Source: Thioclava sediminum (GTDB lineage Bacteria; Pseudomonadota; Alphaproteobacteria; Rhodobacterales; Rhodobacteraceae). From it: DNA of 64,000 bases. The DNA lies in NCBI RefSeq assembly GCF_002020355.1, contig NZ_MPZV01000001.1, positions 558,001 through 622,000 of the forward strand. Direction: 5' to 3'. Within the stretch, counting starts at the first letter, position 1, and each line of letters starts with the position of its first letter. Shown piece after piece: positions 25,456 to 64,000 of this stretch. The notes under the pieces were generated by a model. That model made no database searches and was not told where the DNA came from. It saw only the letters and a program-made list of their open reading frames with translations. Position numbers and translations under genes: made by a program.

Positions 25456-26781
25456 TCACTCGACCTCTTCGAGCACCTCTTTGAGCGTACCGACCAGCTC
25501 GTCGATCTGCTCTTTCGAGATGATCAGCGGCGGGCTCATCGCGATGATGTCGCCGGTGGTCCGGATCAGGATGCCTTTGTCGTAGGCCTTCAGGAAGGCC
25601 GAGAAGGCCCGCTTCGTGGGTTCGCCCGCGATCGGCTCCAGCTCGACCGCACCGATCAGACCCTCGTTGCGGATGTCGATCACGTTGCGCACGCCCTTGA
25701 GCGAATGCAGTGCCTCTTCCCAATAGGGGGCAAGCTCGGCGGCCCGCTCGAACAGGCCCTCTTCGCGATAGGTCTCGATCGTCGCGATCCCGGCGGCGGC
25801 GGCGATCGGGTTGCCCGAATAGGTGTAGCCGTGGAACAGCTCGATCATGTGCTCGGGGCCGTTCATGAAGGCGTCGTGAACCTCAGCCGTCGCCAGCACT
25901 GCGCCCATCGGGATCACCCCGTTGGTGAGGCCCTTCGCGGTGGTCATCATATCCGGCACGACACCGTATTTCTCGGCGGCGAAGGCCGCGCCCGTGCGCC
26001 CGAAACCGGTGATCACCTCGTCGAAGATCAGCAGGATGCCGTGCTTCTTGGTGATGTCGCGCAGCTTCTGCAGGTAGCCTTTCGGCGGCAACAGCACGCC
26101 GGTCGACCCCGCGACCGGCTCCACGATGACGGCGGCGATGGTCTCGGCGCCATGCAGCGCGATGATGCGCTCGAGGTCGTCGGCCAGATGCGCGCCATGC
26201 TCGGGGCAGCCTTTCGACCAGCGGTTCTCCTCGGGCAGATGGGTGTGCGGCAGGTGATCGACGCCCGGCACGAGCGGACCGAAGGTCTTGCGGTTGGTGA
26301 CGATACCGCCCACCGAAATACCGCCGAAGTTCACGCCATGATAGCCGCGCTCGCGACCGATCAAACGGGTGCGAGCGCCGTCGCCGCGCGCACGGTGATA
26401 GCCGATGGCGAGCTTCAGCGCGGTCTCGACCGATTCCGAGCCGGAATTGGTGTAGAAGACATGTGCCATCTCGTCGGGCGCGATGTCGAGGATACGGTTG
26501 GCCAGCTCGAACGCGATCGGGTGGCCCATCTGGAAGGCGGGCGCGTAATCAAGCTCGGCGGCCTGTTTCTGGATCGCCTCGGTGATCTTCGGGCGGCAAT
26601 GGCCCGCGTTGCAGCACCACAGACCGGCCGTGCCGTCGAGCACCTGACGCCCATCCGAGGTGGTGTAATGCATATCCTTCGCGCCCACGAACATGCGCGG
26701 GTTCTTCTTGAACTGGCGGTTCGCCGTGAAAGGCATCCAGAAAGCGTTGAGATCGTTGGGGGACTTGCGGTCGAGCGCCAT
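25456..26781 (-). CDS. Omega-amino acid:pyruvate aminotransferase (beta-alanine type)
   Basis: A 441-residue class III PLP enzyme. Catalytic K283 is in TTAKGLTNGVIPMGA, the PLP-phosphate motif is SGSESVETALK, and the Asp is in IFDEVITGFGR. Sequence and length match beta-alanine:pyruvate transaminases (BauA/OAPT group). Here it would convert beta-alanine or 3-aminoisobutyrate, the end products of pyrimidine breakdown, to semialdehydes. It is divergent from a tetR gene across a TGACC-N4-GGTCA palindrome and has its own terminator. Confidence 0.92.
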   Translation of the reverse strand: MALDRKSPNDLNAFWMPFTANRQFKKNPRMFVGAKDMHYTTSDGRQVLDGTAGLWCCNAGHCRPKITEAIQKQAAELDYAPAFQMGHPIAFELANRILDIAPDEMAHVFYTNSGSESVETALKLAIGYHRARGDGARTRLIGRERGYHGVNFGGISVGGIVTNRKTFGPLVPGVDHLPHTHLPEENRWSKGCPEHGAHLADDLERIIALHGAETIAAVIVEPVAGSTGVLLPPKGYLQKLRDITKKHGILLIFDEVITGFGRTGAAFAAEKYGVVPDMMTTAKGLTNGVIPMGAVLATAEVHDAFMNGPEHMIELFHGYTYSGNPIAAAAGIATIETYREEGLFERAAELAPYWEEALHSLKGVRNVIDIRNEGLIGAVELEPIAGEPTKRAFSAFLKAYDKGILIRTTGDIIAMSPPLIISKEQIDELVGTLKEVLEEVE

Positions 26782-55249: not shown

Positions 55250-55915
55250 TCAGGCGGCGGTGTGCAACTGGCGCGGGGCCGACTGAGCTGCGATCACACA
55301 GGCTTCGGCCATTTCACGACGCCGCTGCGTGGAGTATTCCGCAGGCATCCGCAGCGCCGCGTATTGGCGCCCATCCTCGTCGTTGCGATAGGTCGGGCCC
55401 ATCCGGCTCACATCGTAGCCAAGCTGGCGCAGCGCGCGCATCAGGGCGAGCGAGGAGAGGCAGATCAACTCGTCCGCACCGCGTTCCCTGGCGCGCTCCA
55501 CCAGCCCGTCGACGATGAGCCGCAGACAGGTCGAGCGTTCCGCCTGCGTGGTGAGCGCGTCGGAAATCACCAGCCGCGTGCATTCCCAGACCCTCTCGCT
55601 CGCGATTTCGGTCGGCAGGATTTCCGGCGGGATATGGGGCAGCTTCCCCAGATGCGCGTCGCGCAGCATGTAGGTGTTGCCGCCCCAGATCGCCACGGTC
55701 GACATGACCCTTGCCCCGCCCACCACCTGCCCGTCCTTCAGCACGAGCGAGTAATGCGCCAAGGGCGTATCGTATTGATCCATTTCTACTTCGTCATTAT
55801 GCGGCACGTCCCAACCGAGCGTGTCGACGAAGACCTCCTTGCGCAGGCGCAGGAAGTCGTAAAAAGCGGTGCCGAAGCGGTGAAGTTGCGAGAATTCGAA
55901 AGTGCAGTTTTGCAT
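55250..55915 (-). CDS. luxI: Acyl-homoserine-lactone synthase (LuxI family)
   Basis: 221 residues from MQNCTFEF (AGGAGG upstream). The invariant LuxI residues are all present: R25, F29, W35, D46, D49 and R69 (canonical R70). E is retained in RVWECTRLVI. It makes an AHL signal from S-adenosylmethionine and acyl-ACP. It lies 73 bases downstream of luxR on the same strand, with two inverted repeats between. Confidence 0.95.
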   Translation of the reverse strand: MQNCTFEFSQLHRFGTAFYDFLRLRKEVFVDTLGWDVPHNDEVEMDQYDTPLAHYSLVLKDGQVVGGARVMSTVAIWGGNTYMLRDAHLGKLPHIPPEILPTEIASERVWECTRLVISDALTTQAERSTCLRLIVDGLVERARERGADELICLSSLALMRALRQLGYDVSRMGPTYRNDEDGRQYAALRMPAEYSTQRRREMAEACVIAAQSAPRQLHTAA

Positions 55916-55950
55916 TGGAGCCTCCTTCTGGATAGCTCCATCGAAACCAC

Positions 55951-55967
55951 GAATTTGTGAAAAATTC
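55951..55967. promoter_or_regulatory. 17-bp inverted repeat upstream of luxI (IR1)
   Basis: GAATTT-GTGAA-AAATTC: 6-base arms and a 5-base spacer, centred 44 bases upstream of the luxI ATG. Same geometry and TTGT-NN-AAA core as the repeats at 55975 and 57151. Candidate LuxR-family site. Confidence 0.5.
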
Positions 55968-55974
55968 ACTCTTT

Positions 55975-55991
55975 TAGGTTGTATAAACCTA
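55975..55991. promoter_or_regulatory. 17-bp inverted repeat overlapping the luxR stop (IR2)
   Basis: TAGGTT-GTATA-AACCTA: perfect 6-base arms, centred 68 bases upstream of the luxI ATG and 24 bases from IR1. The luxR TAG stop lies inside it. The ACCTA/TAGGT arms recall the ACCTG/CAGGT arms of lux boxes. Confidence 0.55.
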
Positions 55992-56591
55992 GATCAGTCG
56001 CCTTGAAGTCGCGATTGCGAGCATTTCAATCGCATTTCGCGCCCCCAGTTTTCGGCTCGCAGAAGACAGCCGCGCTTTAACGCCGCTTTCGGAAATTGCG
56101 AGTTCCGCGGCGATCTGTTTGATCAAGAGCCCGTCGGCGCGGAAGCGGATCGCCTCGAGTTCGGCATCCGTGAGCGAGCGTTGCGAGGCGTCGACATGCA
56201 AGGCCTTGAGCATATCGAAAGCTTCATGAAGCTCGGCATCGGTGAAATCGCGATCCGACCGGAACAGGACCGCGTGGCTGCGGCGCCCGGCATCGCTTGG
56301 CGTGTTGTAAGAGATCGTGGCGGCGTAGGTCAGCCCCATCCGGCGGGCCATGCCGACGACGTCTCGGGGATCGTCCTTCAGGTCGACCCAGCGCACGTAA
56401 CCGACATTGTGATAGACCCAGTGCATCGAAGGGTCCTGCACGACCAGTCCATGCTGGGTGTACATGTCGACCCAGTCGCTGTTCAGACGGTTGAGTTCGG
56501 CTTCGGGAAATGCATATCCAACCCTGAGCGCGAGGTAAAACCCGGCCGGGGCGATTTCATTCAATCGCGTTTCGCAATCCCTCAGTTCCAT
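55989..56591 (-). CDS. luxR: LuxR-family quorum-sensing regulator
   Basis: 200 residues, somewhat short for the family. The autoinducer-binding domain (about 1-130) has DWVDMYTQHGLVVQDPS and W in YVRWVDL. A GerE-type HTH (about 138-198, LTDAELEAIRFRADGLLIKQIA; ISESGVKARLSSASRKL) follows. It is upstream of luxI on the same strand. No clear Shine-Dalgarno lies before the ATG. It is the probable AHL receptor for the luxI product. Confidence 0.93.
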   Translation of the reverse strand: MELRDCETRLNEIAPAGFYLALRVGYAFPEAELNRLNSDWVDMYTQHGLVVQDPSMHWVYHNVGYVRWVDLKDDPRDVVGMARRMGLTYAATISYNTPSDAGRRSHAVLFRSDRDFTDAELHEAFDMLKALHVDASQRSLTDAELEAIRFRADGLLIKQIAAELAISESGVKARLSSASRKLGARNAIEMLAIATSRRLI

Positions 56592-56690
56592 ATTCTGATG
56601 GTCAATTCACTTGCACTCACTGCGGTCGCAGCCTACCGTCGCCCGCGACGCTGCAGCCTTGTACCAACAACCTAAAGACGAATTCCCGTG

Positions 56691-57122
56691 ATGGAAACAG
56701 CAAACCGCAAGGAAATCGCCAGCCTGCTCGAGCAACTCGGTCAAACCTGCGACACAGGTTTCGCGTTTGCCCTGCATATCCGCTTCACCCGTCCGAACAT
56801 CCTTTATCGCACATATCCCGAGCCGTGGATCGATGAATATAGCGAAAAGGGCATGATGATGGATGACCCGGTCGTCCTTTGGGGCATGCAGCATGAGGGT
56901 ATCGTCCGCTGGGAAGATCTCGACGACCCCAAGGGCGTCCTGAAAGGCGCGAAATCCCATGGACTTTACAATGGCCTGACCTGCGCAGTGCTGGAGAATG
57001 GCTCTCGCTCGATTTCGGGATTCACCCGGTCCAGTGCCCCCTTCTCCGAGGCCGAAGCGCAGGACCTACTCGAGAAGACCCGGCGCCTGCACACCCTGAC
57101 GGCGGGTCTTTCCGACCTCTGA
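56691..57122 (+). CDS. HTH-less LuxR-like autoinducer-binding protein
   Basis: 143 residues from the ATG at 56691 (a GTG lies one codon earlier). It aligns only to the AHL-binding domain of LuxR: Y42, W46 and Y50 in YPEPWIDEY, D59-P60 and W74. It stops where a GerE DNA-binding domain would begin, with no frameshifted HTH downstream. Divergent from luxR. It may bind AHL or heterodimerise with LuxR as an antagonist, as TrlR does for TraR. Confidence 0.85.
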   Translation: METANRKEIASLLEQLGQTCDTGFAFALHIRFTRPNILYRTYPEPWIDEYSEKGMMMDDPVVLWGMQHEGIVRWEDLDDPKGVLKGAKSHGLYNGLTCAVLENGSRSISGFTRSSAPFSEAEAQDLLEKTRRLHTLTAGLSDL

Positions 57123-57437
57123 GAAAAGGCGCTTTTGTGCCTTTCCCGGCTCGATTGTCTAAATCGAATCAACGGATAGCCGCGAAAACGAAAAGTCGAA
57201 CCGGCAGCGCCACACTCAACCCTAACGTGCAAAGTTCATCTAACCGGAGGTTGGATTTTTTCGACCTTCCGAATTTCGCTCGAAAAGCTTTGCTTTCGCT
57301 TGATCGGCCCGAAATTCGCCCCCTACGCTTTTGAAATATCTGTAATCGGGATCGACGGGCCTGGTCCGGCCCAGAGCGATTAAGTCGACCTCAAACCGGA
57401 CTGGGCAGTCGTTGCCGTTCTTCTGTGGGGGGAGAAC
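57123..57437. other. 315-base non-coding region ahead of the polysaccharide operon
   Basis: AT-richer than its neighbours. It holds an AAAGGC/GCCTTT hairpin at 57125-57144 just after the HTH-less luxR gene, a 17-bp inverted repeat at 57151-57167, and GAATTTCG (57271-57278) facing CGAAATTC (57310-57317). No reading frame here looks coding. Presumed promoter/regulatory region of the UDP-xylose synthase-like gene. Confidence 0.6.
57151..57167. promoter_or_regulatory. 17-bp inverted repeat upstream of the polysaccharide operon (IR3)
   Basis: TCGATT-GTCTA-AATCGA: perfect 6-base arms, 5-base spacer, 271 bases before the epimerase ATG. Shares the TTGT-NN-AAA core with IR1 and IR2 at luxI. Confidence 0.5.
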
Positions 57438-58490
57438 ATGACGCATCTGCCACGTTTCGAGACGCAAGATATCTCTTGGGCGCCGCCGCGCCGGCATAGG
57501 GGGCAGTTACGTTGCCTGGTTGCCGGAGGGGCCGGGTTTCTGGGATCGCATCTGTGCGACCGGCTGATCGAAGCCGGTCACGCCGTGATCTGCATCGACA
57601 ACCTGCAGACCGGGCGGACACGAAACATCGCCCATCTGCTGGACCATCCCGATTTCACCTTCCTCAGGCATGACGTCATCGCCCCGCTGCAGATGCATGG
57701 CGAGATCGATCGGATCTTCAATCTCGCCTGCGCGGCCTCGCCGCCGAAATATCAGCTCGATCCGCTGCACACGTTCCAGACCTGCATCGCCGGGTCGCTG
57801 AACCTTCTCAGCCTGGCCGAGCGGACCGGCGCGCGCATCCTGCAGGCCTCGACCTCCGAGGTCTACGGCGACCCGGACATCTCGCCTCAGCACGAAGACT
57901 ATCGCGGCCGGGTGAACACCACCGGGCCCCGCGCCTGCTACGACGAAGGCAAACGCGCGGCAGAGACGCTGTTCCATGATCTTCAGGCCTGTCGCGGCAT
58001 CGACACCCGCATCGCGCGGATTTTCAACACCTACGGGCCGCGGATGGACCCCGAGGATGGGCGCGTGATCTCGAATTTCGTGACGCGGGCGATCCGCGGC
58101 ACGCCGCTTGAACTCTATGGCGGCGGCACGCAGACGCGCTCGCTGTGCTATGTCGACGATCTGATCAGCGGACTGGTCGCGCTGATGGAAAGCGAGACGG
58201 TCGGCCACGATCCGGTCAATCTGGGCAATCCGGGCGAATATACCGTCGCCGAGCTGGCCCATATCGTGCGCGACATGTGCGAGAGCCGGGCGCCGCTCGT
58301 CGTCTCGGATCTGCCGCTCGACGATCCGATGCAACGCTGCCCCGACATCACCCGCGCCGAGACCCGGCTGGGCTGGCGTCCGGAGATCGCGCTGCGCAGC
58401 GGCCTCGTGCCGACCATCGCCTATTTCCGGGCGGAGATAGCGGGCGTTGAAACCGCAACCGCCCCGATAACCGCAACGGCCGCCGAATGA
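57438..58490 (+). CDS. UDP-glucuronate decarboxylase (UDP-xylose synthase)-like epimerase
   Basis: A 350-residue SDR protein. NAD-binding GGAGFLGSHLCDRL (about 30-43), NLACAASPPKYQLDP, S-T-SEVYGDP and the decarboxylase-type GPRACYDEGKRAAE containing the Y-x3-K. These match UXS enzymes, which make UDP-xylose from UDP-glucuronate. GGGGGGAG precedes the ATG; a 4-base overlap joins it to the glycosyltransferase gene. Supplies a sugar donor for a polysaccharide. Confidence 0.9.
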   Translation: MTHLPRFETQDISWAPPRRHRGQLRCLVAGGAGFLGSHLCDRLIEAGHAVICIDNLQTGRTRNIAHLLDHPDFTFLRHDVIAPLQMHGEIDRIFNLACAASPPKYQLDPLHTFQTCIAGSLNLLSLAERTGARILQASTSEVYGDPDISPQHEDYRGRVNTTGPRACYDEGKRAAETLFHDLQACRGIDTRIARIFNTYGPRMDPEDGRVISNFVTRAIRGTPLELYGGGTQTRSLCYVDDLISGLVALMESETVGHDPVNLGNPGEYTVAELAHIVRDMCESRAPLVVSDLPLDDPMQRCPDITRAETRLGWRPEIALRSGLVPTIAYFRAEIAGVETATAPITATAAE

Positions 58491-60301
58491 TCCAGCGCCC
58501 CGACATACGCGCTGCGATCGAGGCCGGACACCTCGCGCCCATCCTCACACCGAGGCAGGCACTGCGCTATCGGGTGCTGTTTGCGCTGTGGATGCTCGCG
58601 ACGGTCTATTTCTGGAGCTGGTGGCTGACACCGTCGCATGTCCTTTCGACGGTTCCCTATTTGATACTCACGGGCGTGCTGATCTGGCTTCTGGCAATGC
58701 AGATCTACTTCTTCGTGATCTTCCTGCAGGCGGTCCGCCCCTCCTCGCCCCTTCCGGAGCCGGGTCGGTGGCGCGTCGCGATGATCACGACGAAAACTCC
58801 ATCCGAACCCTTTTCGGTCGTTCGTCGGACATTGGAGGCGATGCTCGCGCAGGACTATCCGCATGACACGTGGCTCGCCGACGAAGCGCCCTCGCCCGAG
58901 ACGCGCGCATGGTGCAAGATCCACGGGGTGAAGATCTCCAGCCGCCACGGCATCGCGGACTACCACCGGCAGGAATGGCCGCGGCGGACCCGCTGCAAGG
59001 AAGGCAACCTCGCCTATTTCTACGACCACTGGGGCTATCGCGATTATGACATCGTAAGCCAGCTGGACGCCGATCACGTCCCGCAACCGGGATACCTGCG
59101 CGAAATGTTGCGCCCCTTCGCCGATGATGCGGTGGGCTATGTCAGTGCGCCGTCGATCTGTGCGTCCAATGCCAAGGAAAGCTGGGCCGCGCGCACGCGG
59201 CTTTATTTCGAAGCGGCCTTCCACGGAGTTTTTCAAGCGGGCTACACTGCAGTATTCGCGCCGATGTGCATCGGCTCTCATTACGCTGTGCGCACCTCCG
59301 CGCTGAAGGAAGCTGGCGGTCTAGGTCCCGAACTCGCGGAAGATCACTCGACCACGCTCCTGATGAACGCGGCGGGCTGGCGCGGCGTTCACGCGATCGA
59401 CGCGATTGCGATCGGCGATGGCCCGGCGACTGTGACCGACCTGATCACGCAGGAGTTCCAGTGGTCGCGCTCGCTGCTGAGCCTCCTTCTGCGCTACATG
59501 CCGGACTATGTCGGCAAGATGCCGTGGCGGCTGAAGTTCCTCTTCGTGCTCTGCCAAAGCTGGTATGTCTTCTTCGCGCTCTCGATGTCGATGATGTATG
59601 TCGCCCCGATCATCGCCATCAGCTTCGACATGCGCTTTGCCGACGTGACCTATCCCGCCTTTATCGGACATGTGCTGCCCGCAGGCACGGTGACGCTGAT
59701 ATTCGCCTTCATGCTGCGGCGCGATCAGTTCTTCCGTCCGCACGACGCCAAGATCATCGCGTGGGAGAAAGCACTCTTCGTGATGATGCAATGGCCTTGG
59801 GTGCTCTGGGGATGCGTGATGGCCGTCTATGACCGGCTGTCGGGCAAGTTCGTCGATTTCCGGATCACGCCGAAAGGCGAAGCGGCCTCGACGATGCTGC
59901 CGGAGCGGATCATCGCCGTTTACGGTGGACTGGCCCTGGGGGCCTTGCTGCCGGTTCTTCTGGTGGACAACGTCATCGAGGCGCGCGGGTTTTACCTCCT
60001 CTCCATGTTCAACGCCGCGTTCTATTTCGTCTTGCTGAGTGTGATCTTCGGCGCGCGCGCGCGCCGCGTTCAGATCGATTGGCGCGGTTGGCCGCGCGAC
60101 ATGGCGGTTCAGATGGGCACGCTGAGCGTCATCGTCTCGCTCAGTTTCGGAGCCCTTTGGCTCCGCGGCGGCGAAAGCGTCTACGCGCTCATGATCGGGC
60201 TGAAATCGGTTCAGCTCGCAAAGGTCGAATACATCGTCTCGGGGGCCGGCATGGGCGCTCCGGGACAAGCGAAGTTCCACGTCAAACCAAGCTGGAAGTG
60301 A
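58487..60301 (+). CDS. Cellulose-synthase-like family 2 glycosyltransferase
   Basis: 604 residues: two or three N-terminal helices (about 28-85), a cytoplasmic GT-A domain with D194-x-D196-H (QLDADHV), the catalytic-base acidic motif E285-D286-H, and QEFQWSRS at 322-329 (Q-x-x-Q-W rather than the usual QxxRW). About six C-terminal helices follow. It resembles BcsA-type processive synthases but lacks a PilZ domain. Overlaps the epimerase gene by 4 bases; likely polymerises and exports a glycan. Confidence 0.9.
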   Translation: MIQRPDIRAAIEAGHLAPILTPRQALRYRVLFALWMLATVYFWSWWLTPSHVLSTVPYLILTGVLIWLLAMQIYFFVIFLQAVRPSSPLPEPGRWRVAMITTKTPSEPFSVVRRTLEAMLAQDYPHDTWLADEAPSPETRAWCKIHGVKISSRHGIADYHRQEWPRRTRCKEGNLAYFYDHWGYRDYDIVSQLDADHVPQPGYLREMLRPFADDAVGYVSAPSICASNAKESWAARTRLYFEAAFHGVFQAGYTAVFAPMCIGSHYAVRTSALKEAGGLGPELAEDHSTTLLMNAAGWRGVHAIDAIAIGDGPATVTDLITQEFQWSRSLLSLLLRYMPDYVGKMPWRLKFLFVLCQSWYVFFALSMSMMYVAPIIAISFDMRFADVTYPAFIGHVLPAGTVTLIFAFMLRRDQFFRPHDAKIIAWEKALFVMMQWPWVLWGCVMAVYDRLSGKFVDFRITPKGEAASTMLPERIIAVYGGLALGALLPVLLVDNVIEARGFYLLSMFNAAFYFVLLSVIFGARARRVQIDWRGWPRDMAVQMGTLSVIVSLSFGALWLRGGESVYALMIGLKSVQLAKVEYIVSGAGMGAPGQAKFHVKPSWK

Positions 60302-60333
60302 CGGGGCTTCGCACTGAAAAGGAGGAGACTGAC

Positions 60334-61245
60334 ATGGCTAATTATTTGATGACCCGTCGCGAGATGATGGCCGGTGCCGCGGCGTTGGGACTGACAGTAT
60401 CGGCGCGGCCGGCGTTCGCTGCGGATGTCAGCGTGCCGCCCGGCTCCTTGCCGTTCGGGGTCTATGATCCCGATGGTGACTTTGCGGATCTTTCGGGCGT
60501 GGTGATCGAGCACCTGTTCCTGCCCTGGGAGGACGTTTTCCTTCCCTCGCTGAACGACGCCGACAGCTACGCGCTCGAACGAAACCGCGCGCTTCTGGTG
60601 ACACTGGAGCCCTGGACATGGTCGCGCTCGGAGCGCAACACGGCGCAATATCTGCGCCGCGGCATCGAGCGAGGCGAATACGACGCCAACATGATCGCGG
60701 TGGCCGATGTGCTGGCGACGCTGCAAAGCCCGGTCACGCTACGCTTTGCCCATGAGATGGACGACAAATCCGGCCAGTTCATCTGGTCGGACTGGAACCC
60801 CGACGACTACATCGCGGCCTATCGCCGGATGACCGACGTCGCCCGCGACCGGGCGCCGAAGATCAATCTGATGTGGTCCCCGCTGGGCGACGAGAACATG
60901 GGCGACTATTACCCGGGTGACGATTACGCCGACATCGTGGGCCTCACCGTCTTCGGGCTGCAGGCTTGGGACCAGGCCAAGTTCGGGCGCGATCAGACCT
61001 TCGACGACATCTTCGCGCCCCGCTACGCGCGGGCTGCAACCTATGGCAAACCGGTTGCGGTGGCCGAGCTCGGCTATGTCGGAAACCAGTCCTATGTCTC
61101 GATGTGGCGCGACCGGGTGCGTCAGGAATTGCCGGACTATCCGAGCCTCGTCGGTGTAAGTTACTTCAACCAGCGCGAGGTTTACCCGTGGCCCGAAGGC
61201 TTCGGCGCGCCGGATTGGCGAATCAAGAACCAAGTTCTGACCTGA
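60334..61245 (+). CDS. Exported GH26-like glycoside hydrolase
   Basis: 303 residues. N-terminal twin-arginine-like signal MTRREMMAGAAALGL with cleavage near AFA-ADV. TIM-barrel with the clan A pair: acid/base E141 in RFAHEMDDK and nucleophile E245 in VAELGYVG, about 104 residues apart as in GH26 mannanases and glucanases. GGAGGAG precedes the ATG. Third gene of the polysaccharide operon, 32 bases behind the synthase; it may trim or release the polymer. Confidence 0.85.
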   Translation: MANYLMTRREMMAGAAALGLTVSARPAFAADVSVPPGSLPFGVYDPDGDFADLSGVVIEHLFLPWEDVFLPSLNDADSYALERNRALLVTLEPWTWSRSERNTAQYLRRGIERGEYDANMIAVADVLATLQSPVTLRFAHEMDDKSGQFIWSDWNPDDYIAAYRRMTDVARDRAPKINLMWSPLGDENMGDYYPGDDYADIVGLTVFGLQAWDQAKFGRDQTFDDIFAPRYARAATYGKPVAVAELGYVGNQSYVSMWRDRVRQELPDYPSLVGVSYFNQREVYPWPEGFGAPDWRIKNQVLT

Positions 61246-61843: not shown

Positions 61844-62650
61844 TCATTCGGCGGGGAAGCCCACGGTGCAGTCGATCCCGGCGGGCAGCTTGCCCTCGGG
61901 ATTGGGCAGCGCGAGGCGCACCCCGAACGTGTCCGACGCCGCATCGAAAACCTTGTCGACGACGCTCACCGTTGCGTCATACTCGCCGCCCACGGGCGCT
62001 GCGGGATAGACCTTCAACACCTGATCCTTCTTGACGCGGTCATACATCGACGTCGGCAGGAAGACCTCGACATGCAGCGGATCGATCTGCGCGAGCTGCG
62101 CGATCGGCGCTTGCGAATAGACATATTCGCCCGGCCCCATCATCCGCGTGATCACCAGCCCGTCGATCGGCGAGCGGATCTCACGCCGCGCCAGCTGCGC
62201 CTCCACCCTCTGCAGATCGAGTTTCGCCAAATGTTGGTCCATTTGGGCCGAGCGCAGCTCCAACTGGGCCACTTCGGCATTGGTCTGGGCCTCCTGCACC
62301 TGCGCATCGGCCATCACGTTGCGCTTGCCCATCTCGGTCGCGCGGTCGGCGGCCTTTTGCAGCAGCGCCACCTTAGAGCGCGCGATGTCGATCGGCCCCT
62401 CATCCTGCGCACGCTCCTTGGCATAGGTCAGCTGCGCCTCTTCGGCCTTGGATTCCAGCTTCGCGATCGGGTCGCCCTTCTTCACGGTATCCCCGCGCGA
62501 GACGAAGACCTGATCGATCACCCCGTCCACCGCCGAGCCGATCTCGAGCACCTGCCCCGGATCGATCAGGCAATCGAAGCGCTCCTGATCCTGCGCGAGC
62601 GCCGCGCCGGGACCGAGGGCGAGAAGGAGGGTGATGGAAGTAAGCCGCAT
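61844..62650 (-). CDS. HlyD/RND-type periplasmic adaptor protein
   Basis: 268 residues: signal peptide (cleavage after ALA, residue 19), lipoyl-like halves (VDGVIDQVFVSRGDTVKKGDPIAKLE and REIRSPIDGLVITRMMGPGEYV), a coiled-coil hairpin between them (about 70-150) and a short beta domain. A minimal adaptor, shorter than AcrA. AAGGGACC precedes the ATG. It follows the SecA-like gene by 12 bases on the same strand; no pump gene is in the window. Confidence 0.88.
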   Translation of the reverse strand: MRLTSITLLLALGPGAALAQDQERFDCLIDPGQVLEIGSAVDGVIDQVFVSRGDTVKKGDPIAKLESKAEEAQLTYAKERAQDEGPIDIARSKVALLQKAADRATEMGKRNVMADAQVQEAQTNAEVAQLELRSAQMDQHLAKLDLQRVEAQLARREIRSPIDGLVITRMMGPGEYVYSQAPIAQLAQIDPLHVEVFLPTSMYDRVKKDQVLKVYPAAPVGGEYDATVSVVDKVFDAASDTFGVRLALPNPEGKLPAGIDCTVGFPAE

Positions 62651-62662
62651 GGGTGGTCCCTT

Positions 62663-64000
62663 TCAGTTGCCCCTGCCGCTGAAGGCGAGCAGGTCTTCGA
62701 GATTGTCGTCGGCGCGCAGAAGCGCCTTTCGCACACCGGAATGGCGCGCTTCGGTCGCGCGTTGCGCAAGCCGGGTCACGGGCGCGCCGATCAACCACGG
62801 CACGCGCCCCTTCCCGCTTGAAAACATGCGGGTCAGACCGGAAAGCCGCGTGCCGTAGAAGACCCGCAGCAGATCGTCGTCGAGCGAGACGAAGGTGACG
62901 AAACTCCCCGGATCGCCCTGCCGTCCGCAGCGCCCAAAAAGCTGGCGGTCGATGCGGCGCGCGTCGTGGCGACCGGTCGCGATGACATGCAGCCCGCCGA
63001 GGTCGCGCATCTGTTGGTCGATGCGAATGTCGGTGCCACGCCCGGCCATGTTGGTCGCGACCGTGATCCGCCCATGCCCGCCCGCTTCGGCGATGATATG
63101 GGCCTCGTGCTCGGTCTCGCGGGCGTTGAGCACGCGATGCGTCAGACCTTCTTCGGTCAGGAGCGCGCTGATCTCTTCCGAGGCGGCGATGGATTGCGTG
63201 CCGATCAGGATCGGGCGGCCCGTCATATGGACGCGCTTGGCCTCGGCCAGCACGGCGCGCCATTTCTGATCGGCGGTCGCGTAGTGCCGCTCACCAAGGT
63301 TCTTGCGGCGCGAGCGGCGGTTGGTCGGGATGCGCTTCGTGCGCAGCCGGTAGACCGCGCGCAGCTCGCCGGAGACTTCGGCCGCGGTGCCCGTCATGCC
63401 TGCCAGCGTCAGATAGCGGCGGAAGAAGCGTTGGTAAGAAATCCGGATCAGCGTCTCTTGCCGCCCCGTGATCTCGCAGCCTTCCTTCACCTCGATCATC
63501 TGATGCAGCCCGCGCTCCCACGAGCGGTCGGACATCACGCGGCCGGTATATTCATCGACGATCTGCACGCCCGCCTCATCGACGATGTAATGCTTGTCGC
63601 GGTGATAGAGATGCAGCGCCGAGAGCGCCTGCCGCGCCAGTTCCTCGCGGTGAATCTCGGTGGCCCAGACGCCGCCGAAATGCGCGCTGAGCTGGCGCAG
63701 CCGCGCCTTGCCCAGATCGGTCAGTTCGACCTTCCATTCCTTCTCGCGCACGGTGAAATCGCGCGGGCGCGTCAACTTGCGCCCGATCTCGACGGCGCGC
63801 TGATAGGTCTGCTCCAGCCCCGAATGATCGCCGGCCCGGGTGATAATCAGCGGCGTGCGCGCCTCGTCGACCAGCACGGAATCCGCCTCGTCCACGATCG
63901 CGTAGCACAGCCCGCGCATCAGCAGCCTCTGCCGTTTCGGATCGGTCTTCGATAGCCCCTCCAGCGCCATATGCAGCGCGCGGGTCTCGCCCTCCAGCAC
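62663..64000 (-). CDS. Accessory SecA-like ATPase, C-terminal part
   Basis: 445 residues are visible; the 5' end lies beyond the right edge. SecA motor motifs: IVDEADSVLVDEARTPLIIT, FFRRYLTLAGMTGTA, VATNMAGRGTDIRI and LFGRCGRQGDPGS. The protein stops only about 60 residues after the LDDDLLRVFYGTRL segment, so the long helical scaffold, wing and zinc-binding tail of housekeeping SecA are missing. This marks a divergent, shortened SecA paralogue, co-oriented with an HlyD adaptor gene. Confidence 0.85.
   Translation of the reverse strand: MLEGETRALHMALEGLSKTDPKRQRLLMRGLCYAIVDEADSVLVDEARTPLIITRAGDHSGLEQTYQRAVEIGRKLTRPRDFTVREKEWKVELTDLGKARLRQLSAHFGGVWATEIHREELARQALSALHLYHRDKHYIVDEAGVQIVDEYTGRVMSDRSWERGLHQMIEVKEGCEITGRQETLIRISYQRFFRRYLTLAGMTGTAAEVSGELRAVYRLRTKRIPTNRRSRRKNLGERHYATADQKWRAVLAEAKRVHMTGRPILIGTQSIAASEEISALLTEEGLTHRVLNARETEHEAHIIAEAGGHGRITVATNMAGRGTDIRIDQQMRDLGGLHVIATGRHDARRIDRQLFGRCGRQGDPGSFVTFVSLDDDLLRVFYGTRLSGLTRMFSSGKGRVPWLIGAPVTRLAQRATEARHSGVRKALLRADDNLEDLLAFSGRGN

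Follow-up and report, generated by a model that had tools for sequence, protein, structure and literature searches.

In Vibrio, LuxR binds the lux box, a dyad of the form ACCTGT-N8-ACAGGT located near luxI. The known system that is nearest to the module discussed here is CerM/CerN of Cereibacter sphaeroides: CerM binds DNA without acyl-homoserine lactone (AHL), and CerN, which is devoid of a helix-turn-helix (HTH) domain, associates with CerM in the presence of AHL and weakens its hold on the DNA (PMC11655674). The same study reports that a putative polysaccharide operon of seven genes is up in the absence of cerN if cerM is provided, and that a de novo search yielded no reliable motif in the CerM regulon (PMC11655674). 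Two other systems provide further points of reference, namely, TrlR of Agrobacterium, an HTH-less LuxR-type protein next to the functional TraR (PMC13043044), to which it is 88% identical (PMC11655674), and GtaR/GtaI of Rhodobacter capsulatus, a LuxRI pair of the family Rhodobacteraceae with a dyad operator (PMC11655674). Among titles and abstract openings on HTH-less LuxR in Rhodobacteraceae, TrlR-like proteins, Roseobacter lux boxes, Rhodobacterales quorum sensing (QS) and exopolysaccharide (12 of 70 papers), and CerN, a sample largely outside the subscription journals, no other family-wide combination of an HTH-less receptor with luxRI was found. Here we describe a QS module in a 64,000-nucleotide stretch of the Thioclava sediminum genome (contig NZ_MPZV01000001.1, positions 558,001 to 622,000; hereafter, the window), in which luxI, luxR and a gene for an HTH-less AHL receptor adjoin a polysaccharide operon. 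That luxI, the receptor gene and the operon share a conserved element in their upstream regions suggests that polysaccharide production at this locus is under cell-density control.

The first two genes of the module, both on the minus strand, are luxI (55250..55915; ATG at 55915 and a GGAGG site read directly), which encodes an acyl-homoserine-lactone synthase (Pfam Autoind_synth, 4.4e-15), and luxR (55989..56591), which encodes a full-length, CerM-like LuxR-type protein (Autoind_bind, 7.3e-07; GerE, the HTH domain, 7.2e-08). The third gene, absent from the original prediction for this DNA, sits between luxR and the operon, divergent from luxR (56691..57122, plus strand), and encodes a CerN-like LuxR-type AHL receptor of 143 amino acids without the HTH (Autoind_bind, 5.6e-14). 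Autoind_bind is the sole Pfam family detected at 0.01 in this protein and likewise in 76 of the 76 aligned members of its group, three of which are short or cut. A receptor domain with no HTH, encoded beside a full-length LuxR, is the arrangement that defines the CerM/CerN type. The three-gene module appears to occur across Rhodobacteraceae. In loci drawn as the best 80 of 233 LuxI relatives, the receptor gene is divergent from luxR-luxI in 75 of the 75 with enough sequence, at an estimated gap of 95-165 bp; because the choice of the best relatives favors one LuxI clade, this count applies to that clade. Of these 75, L176 and L191 seem truncated, and L193 extends past the end of its contig. 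The other five loci (L156, L168, L169, L175 and L201) start at the edge of a contig, either within the genes or shortly ahead of them. In a wider draw, the receptor profile matches 112 of 248 family genomes at 1e-15, which is not a count of HTH-less proteins given that many of the matches lie in frames longer than 200 amino acids and may be full LuxR proteins.

The AHL pocket appears to be retained in the HTH-less receptor, with W46, Y50, D59 and P60 present in all 76 aligned members, W74 in 75 and G95 in 74, the remainder being gaps. The correspondence of these positions to TraR numbering, mapped by eye through RhlR, is our assumption. In a 79-row tree, which combines sampled loci with three rows from the T. 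sediminum genome itself, all 39 HTH-less proteins fall on one side of a branch with 98% bootstrap, so far as this computation goes a single lineage. The GtaR-like LuxR of T. sediminum is placed beside the HTH-less group and not with the partner LuxRs, on a long branch and with an unsure position.

These features invite comparison with the described systems. As in CerM/CerN/CerI, a full-length LuxR is accompanied, beside a synthase locus, by an HTH-less partner that keeps the AHL pocket, and the two are about 30% identical (28.8 and 30.1% as measured in the near-identical L033); moreover, CerM/CerN affects a polysaccharide operon, and a polysaccharide operon adjoins the module here. In contrast to that system, the Thioclava pair abuts luxI without an intervening cerR, and at the Thioclava locus the CerM site is absent, another dyad is conserved and the polysaccharide operon is adjacent. 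TrlR/TraR shares the juxtaposition of an HTH-less LuxR-type protein with a functional one but differs in that TrlR is 88% identical to TraR, whereas the HTH-less proteins described here are a separate lineage. As at the Vibrio lux box, the dyad lies near luxI, but the Vibrio consensus is not matched at this locus. Pattern searches led us to reject the canonical lux box, the GtaR box and the CerM site at this locus: the lux box with up to 3 mismatches has 14 matches in the window (8.0 expected), none of them within 55900-57440; the GtaR box RACMTGTCYWWWWRGACAKGTY has 0 matches in the window at up to 3 mismatches; and the CerM site TNT(N5)AAGACA(N2)T has 1 window match with 1 mismatch, at 26448, and none at the locus.

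A different operator emerges from the family as a whole. Expectation maximization (EM) applied to 63 non-redundant luxI upstream regions of the 80 LuxI relatives, taken from records neither titled nor classed here as Thioclava, yielded the dyad ACAACYT-N-ARGNTGT (width 18); the last 25 bases before the ATG were trimmed beforehand, as untrimmed upstream regions gave the ribosome-binding site. The log-likelihood at width 18 is 219.5, compared to 57.8-60.4 in three shuffled sets that keep base content only and were run from 30 starts versus 100 for the real set. Widths of 10 and 14 produced the same core, and the motif is symmetric about one center, with a correlation of 0.66 that is reached in 1 of 2000 column permutations (P 0.0005). 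Sites scoring at least 10 are found in 39 of the 63 upstream regions, and 35 of these 39 are located at -45 to -71 relative to the luxI ATG. The receptor gene outside Thioclava appears to be under patchy control: among 61 such gaps, the score is at least 10 in 14 (1.1 expected), at least 12 in 4 (0.4 expected) and at least 14 in 1 (0.1 expected), the expectations coming from shuffles that likewise preserve base content alone. In distant genera, for example in L190, L202 and L209, GCAACCTNAAAGCGAGTA or close variants stand immediately before the receptor start, a sequence that may be part operator and part ribosome-binding site.

Scanned over the window plus 280 kb of the same genome (344 kb in total), the motif trained without Thioclava ranks the two sites of the module highest at width 18. 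The lux-box-like element before the receptor gene, ACAACCTAAAGACGAATT (56667..56684, plus strand), takes rank 1 at width 18, 13 at width 14 and 2 at width 10, and ends 6 bp before the ATG; the likewise lux-box-like element before luxI, ACAACCTAAAAGAGTGAA (55965..55982, minus strand), takes ranks 2, 2 and 20, respectively. For the test of conservation, we used a LuxR search of 61 genomes and took the stretches around 15 of the best relatives. The alignments of the module comprise 12 rows, namely, the window, 7 species with the order luxI-luxR-receptor-UXS-GT-GH26 (together with the window, the 8 linked species) and 4 near relatives with luxI-luxR-receptor and no operon. In all 8 linked species, the receptor-gene site is the best match, with unchanged position and strand; the luxI site is the best on the sense strand in 7 of the 8, and in L037 the best match overlaps it on the opposite strand. 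Within Thioclava, the element assumes a bipartite form, CAACCT-N6-GTGAATTTTTCAC (55957..55981, minus strand), delineated by a genus scan and a reciprocal test with position weight matrices (PWMs). CAACCT-N6-GTGNANNNTTCAY or a close variant precedes luxI in 11 of 14 rows, with the GTG core starting 56 or 57 bases ahead of the last base of the ATG, and is not matched upstream of luxI in L043, L046 and L047. The pattern CAACN{4,9}GTGNNNNNTTCAY has 25 matches in the 8 linked genomes, 14 of these at luxI or the operon, and in two genomes (G003 and G012) it matches exclusively there; the other 8 genomes contain 39 matches with 0 at luxI or the operon, a weak test in the case of G004, G007, G010 and G011, for which the LuxR search gave no close relative of this luxR. 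The reversed control has 19 matches across all 16 genomes. This pattern was devised after the sites had been seen, so that the held-out tests carry more weight.

The operon that adjoins the module, in what seems to be one Thioclava lineage, encodes on the plus strand a UDP-glucuronate decarboxylase (UDP-xylose synthase, UXS)-like short-chain dehydrogenase/reductase (SDR; 57438..58490; 8e-106 to human UXS1, 2b69), a GT2 glycosyltransferase (GT) related to the bacterial cellulose synthase BcsA (58487..60301; 8e-14 to 5ej1, with a match to the CelA model far below the cut-off) and a GH26-like protein (60331..61245; Pfam Glyco_hydro_26, 3.4e-08). The GT is present in 34 of 394 family genomes (1e-150) and in 11 of the 16 genus genomes (1e-40), in 8 of which the operon is linked to QS genes. 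Upstream of the operon lies the element TCAACCCTAACGTGCAAAGTTCAT (57216..57239, plus strand), of the form CAACC-N5-GTG...TTCAT at 57217-57239, which the family motif ranks 28, 60 and 321 at widths 18, 14 and 10. In all 8 linked species, the best match in the 320 bp upstream of the operon is the identical aligned site on the plus strand, at -220 to -230, with scores of 10.0-19.0 and P values of 0.00-0.10 each against shuffles; for calibration, 95% of 300 random 320-bp genome pieces score below 8.8 and 99% below 11.4. A two-block PWM built from the luxI promoters alone finds the operon site as its first non-training match in 344 kb, and, reciprocally, a PWM built from the operon alone finds the luxI site as its first non-training match. 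This shared, conserved element partly supports the proposal that the LuxR-type regulator controls luxI and the polysaccharide operon together.

Modeled on CerM and CerN, the scheme that we favor includes several steps. The LuxR dimer most likely recognizes ACAACYT-N-ARGNTGT, copies of which precede luxI and the receptor gene, with a weaker version upstream of the operon. With the rise of AHL, the receptor with its ligand probably pairs with LuxR and removes it from these sites, as is the case for CerN and CerM, and luxI, the receptor gene and the operon would thereby shift together with cell density. As to the direction of control, our guess is that LuxR on its own is a repressor of the receptor gene, whose ATG is 6 bp from the end of the site, and an activator of the polysaccharide operon at low cell density. 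Taken as a whole, that is, as a QS module with a LuxR-recognized dyad, AHL-dependent release by the receptor and co-controlled luxI, receptor gene and operon, this scheme is one on which our judgment is evenly balanced. A comparative operator of this kind would enable target prediction in a family where the CerM study reports no reliable motif. Should the receptor prove to be a constant third component of the module, inverted logic may operate in many Rhodobacteraceae luxRI pairs. The polysaccharide link offers a directly testable density-controlled trait.

Several observations weigh against this scheme. In the family, 24 of the 63 luxI upstream regions score below 10, and the Thioclava sites match the dyad poorly in its right half. 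Genome-wide, the strict family pattern ACAACYTNARGNNG has 4 matches in T. sediminum, one of which precedes the receptor gene, versus 7 for the control, and the loose core GTGNANNNTTCAY has 9 matches at 8 places versus 11 for the reversed control; six of the 8 places are outside the locus, and the one annotated (L116) is inside a gene. The missing CerM site belongs here as well, and so does a residue of LuxR, which carries W at the aligned position in RhlR where CerM changed to F, a one-species trait and not a defining one. This position in RhlR we take to be W57 of TraR. The retained W, along with the distance of the element from the luxI ATG (50-67 bp in the window), favors canonical activation, whereby LuxR would require AHL to bind the element and would then, at high density, activate luxI and the operon, with the HTH-less protein serving as a TrlR-like brake. 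We consider this unlikely, given that CerM, the closest characterized regulator, binds DNA without AHL (PMC11655674), that a site 6 bp from the ATG of the receptor gene is better suited to repression, and that TrlR is 88% identical to TraR, compared with about 30% between the two proteins here. The confidences that we attach to this and the other alternatives overlap and need not sum to one.

The identity of the regulator itself is another point at which the favored scheme can be challenged. The T. sediminum genome was matched by two other full-length LuxR-type proteins, either of which could be the binder of the element, and the binding by LuxR is a prediction; the element might then belong to another regulator (GtaR-like, the second LuxR or a global factor), with LuxR being merely a neighbor. 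Three lines of evidence make this an improbable explanation: the GtaR consensus finds no match in the window at up to 3 mismatches, the element is tied to the luxI of this particular module across genera, and it is missing from the gap of the second LuxR-receptor pair of the genome described below, where the best score is 3.6 to 4.8.

The remaining points against the LuxR scheme concern the operon. The window copy of the element is moderate, with rank 28 at best in the motif scan and P 0.08 against shuffles; the 8 linked species are related, so that their agreement does not amount to 8 independent events; stripped of CAACC, the 13-base core falls to rank 16 (luxI-trained) and 11 (operon-trained) of 687,640 places; and about 113 bp separate the element from the downstream start site guessed from a candidate promoter picked by eye, TTGATC (57300) with TACGCT (57324), which is partly conserved. 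Furthermore, the first 16 unlinked operons, all with a second SDR match between UXS and GT, show no match to QS genes in their stretches and lack the bipartite form (0/16). The alternative holds that the elements of luxI and the receptor gene are genuine sites, whereas the operon copy arose by chance or was left behind by rearrangement and has no regulatory role; this is compatible with either mode of action at the other two sites. The location and orientation of the operon copy are unchanged in all 8 linked species, though much of the gap has diverged, and it is the top non-training match of the two-block PWM in 344 kb; both observations argue for function, and we regard this alternative, too, as having a low probability.

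Control of luxI and a glycan operon by the AHL regulator had been put forward in the original prediction, on the basis of three inverted repeats with 6-base arms and a 5-base spacer. The motif marks the operon position in all 8 linked species, and therefore the idea of joint control survives in part, through the shared conserved element and not through the three dyads. The dyads, to which no strand is assigned, are present exactly as claimed, at 55951..55967, 55975..55991 and 57151..57167, and their core TTGT-NN-AAA does set them apart: among the 40 perfect 6+5+6 dyads in the window, TTGTNNAAA occurs in exactly these three, and in the 280 kb sampled from the same genome, it occurs in 0 of 151. 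Three such dyads in these intergenic regions exceed the dinucleotide shuffles (mean 0.15, P 0.0004), a value to be read in the light of the post hoc choice of geometry and core. By itself, the core is common genome-wide, with 140 occurrences versus 118 for the reversed control.

Conservation in relatives with the same gene order, on which the three repeats had been staked, failed. With the window included, dyad 1 is intact in 4 of the 12 aligned rows and dyad 2 in 3 of the 12, and dyad 3 is intact in 1 of the 8 species with the same luxRI-operon order, the window alone; L044 and L045, in which luxI found no match, were excluded from these counts, as were L046 and L047, which come from other genera and have unalignable gaps. 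Both dyads 1 and 2 overlap the conserved luxI element: dyad 1, whose own arms are not conserved, overlaps the conserved GTGAA-AAA-TTCAC, and dyad 2 overlaps the AGGTTGT half of the element as well as the luxR stop codon (55989-55991), in which its right arm terminates. Dyad 3 lies upstream of the operon element and stops about 50 bp short of it. Double-sided changes that keep the pairing are confined to L041 (one in dyad 2) and L043 (one in dyad 1 and three in dyad 2), where the same dyads have 2 to 4 further pairs that no longer match. We therefore reject the three dyads as conserved sites, their arms not being kept across relatives. That they are LuxR sites in their own right, as the rarity of the core (0 of 151 dyads in 280 kb) might be taken to indicate, is extremely improbable in view of the non-conserved arms, except in the case of sites peculiar to the window species.

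The operons that are not linked to QS genes bear on the age of the proposed control. From 35 such operons, L270 was dropped for a weak UXS match, and among the remaining 34, the sense-strand score is at least 15 in 5 (0.65 expected), at least 14 in 5 (1.15), at least 12 in 6 (3.45) and at least 10 in 10 (7.2), with thresholds inspected afterwards and expectations from shuffles. The three Thioclava unlinked operons (L250-L252) score 6.7, 0.6 and 2.7. A tentative evolutionary scenario, to which we give less credence than to the scheme for the locus itself, would be an ancient Rhodobacteraceae three-gene unit with its own operator ACAACYT-N-ARGNTGT, an AHL-free LuxR and an HTH-less remover, where the UXS/BcsA-like operon is an old target in several genera that was captured beside the unit in Thioclava.

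Several other features of the unlinked operons and of the T. sediminum genome can be recorded. Strong plus-strand matches to the element are found at -177 to -262 of UXS in five unlinked operons of other genera (L239, L240, L244, L261 and L273). In L250 and L251, two similar tandem stretches like AGACCAAGCGGTCAGAATTTGATC are seen by eye before UXS, maybe the site of another regulator. Elsewhere in the T. sediminum genome, a second divergent pair of a full LuxR and an HTH-less receptor is located at G000:C1:1050940-1052121 (L048:3998-5149); tblastn detected no luxI within this 11.6 kb stretch, and the family element was not found in the whole gap of the pair, the range of best scores given above reflecting the background used. 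A second LuxRI pair, which we take for GtaRI, occupies a separate locus (G000:C1:1353161-1354358, L050), and yet another LuxR-type autoinducer-binding match, in a frame of 248 amino acids with no luxI match in its stretch, is at G000:C1:1137656-1138117 (L049). Finally, at the end of the window, a minus-strand frame (62663-64000) that resembles, by sight, a SecA paralogue adjoins a gene for an HlyD-type adaptor (61844-62650).

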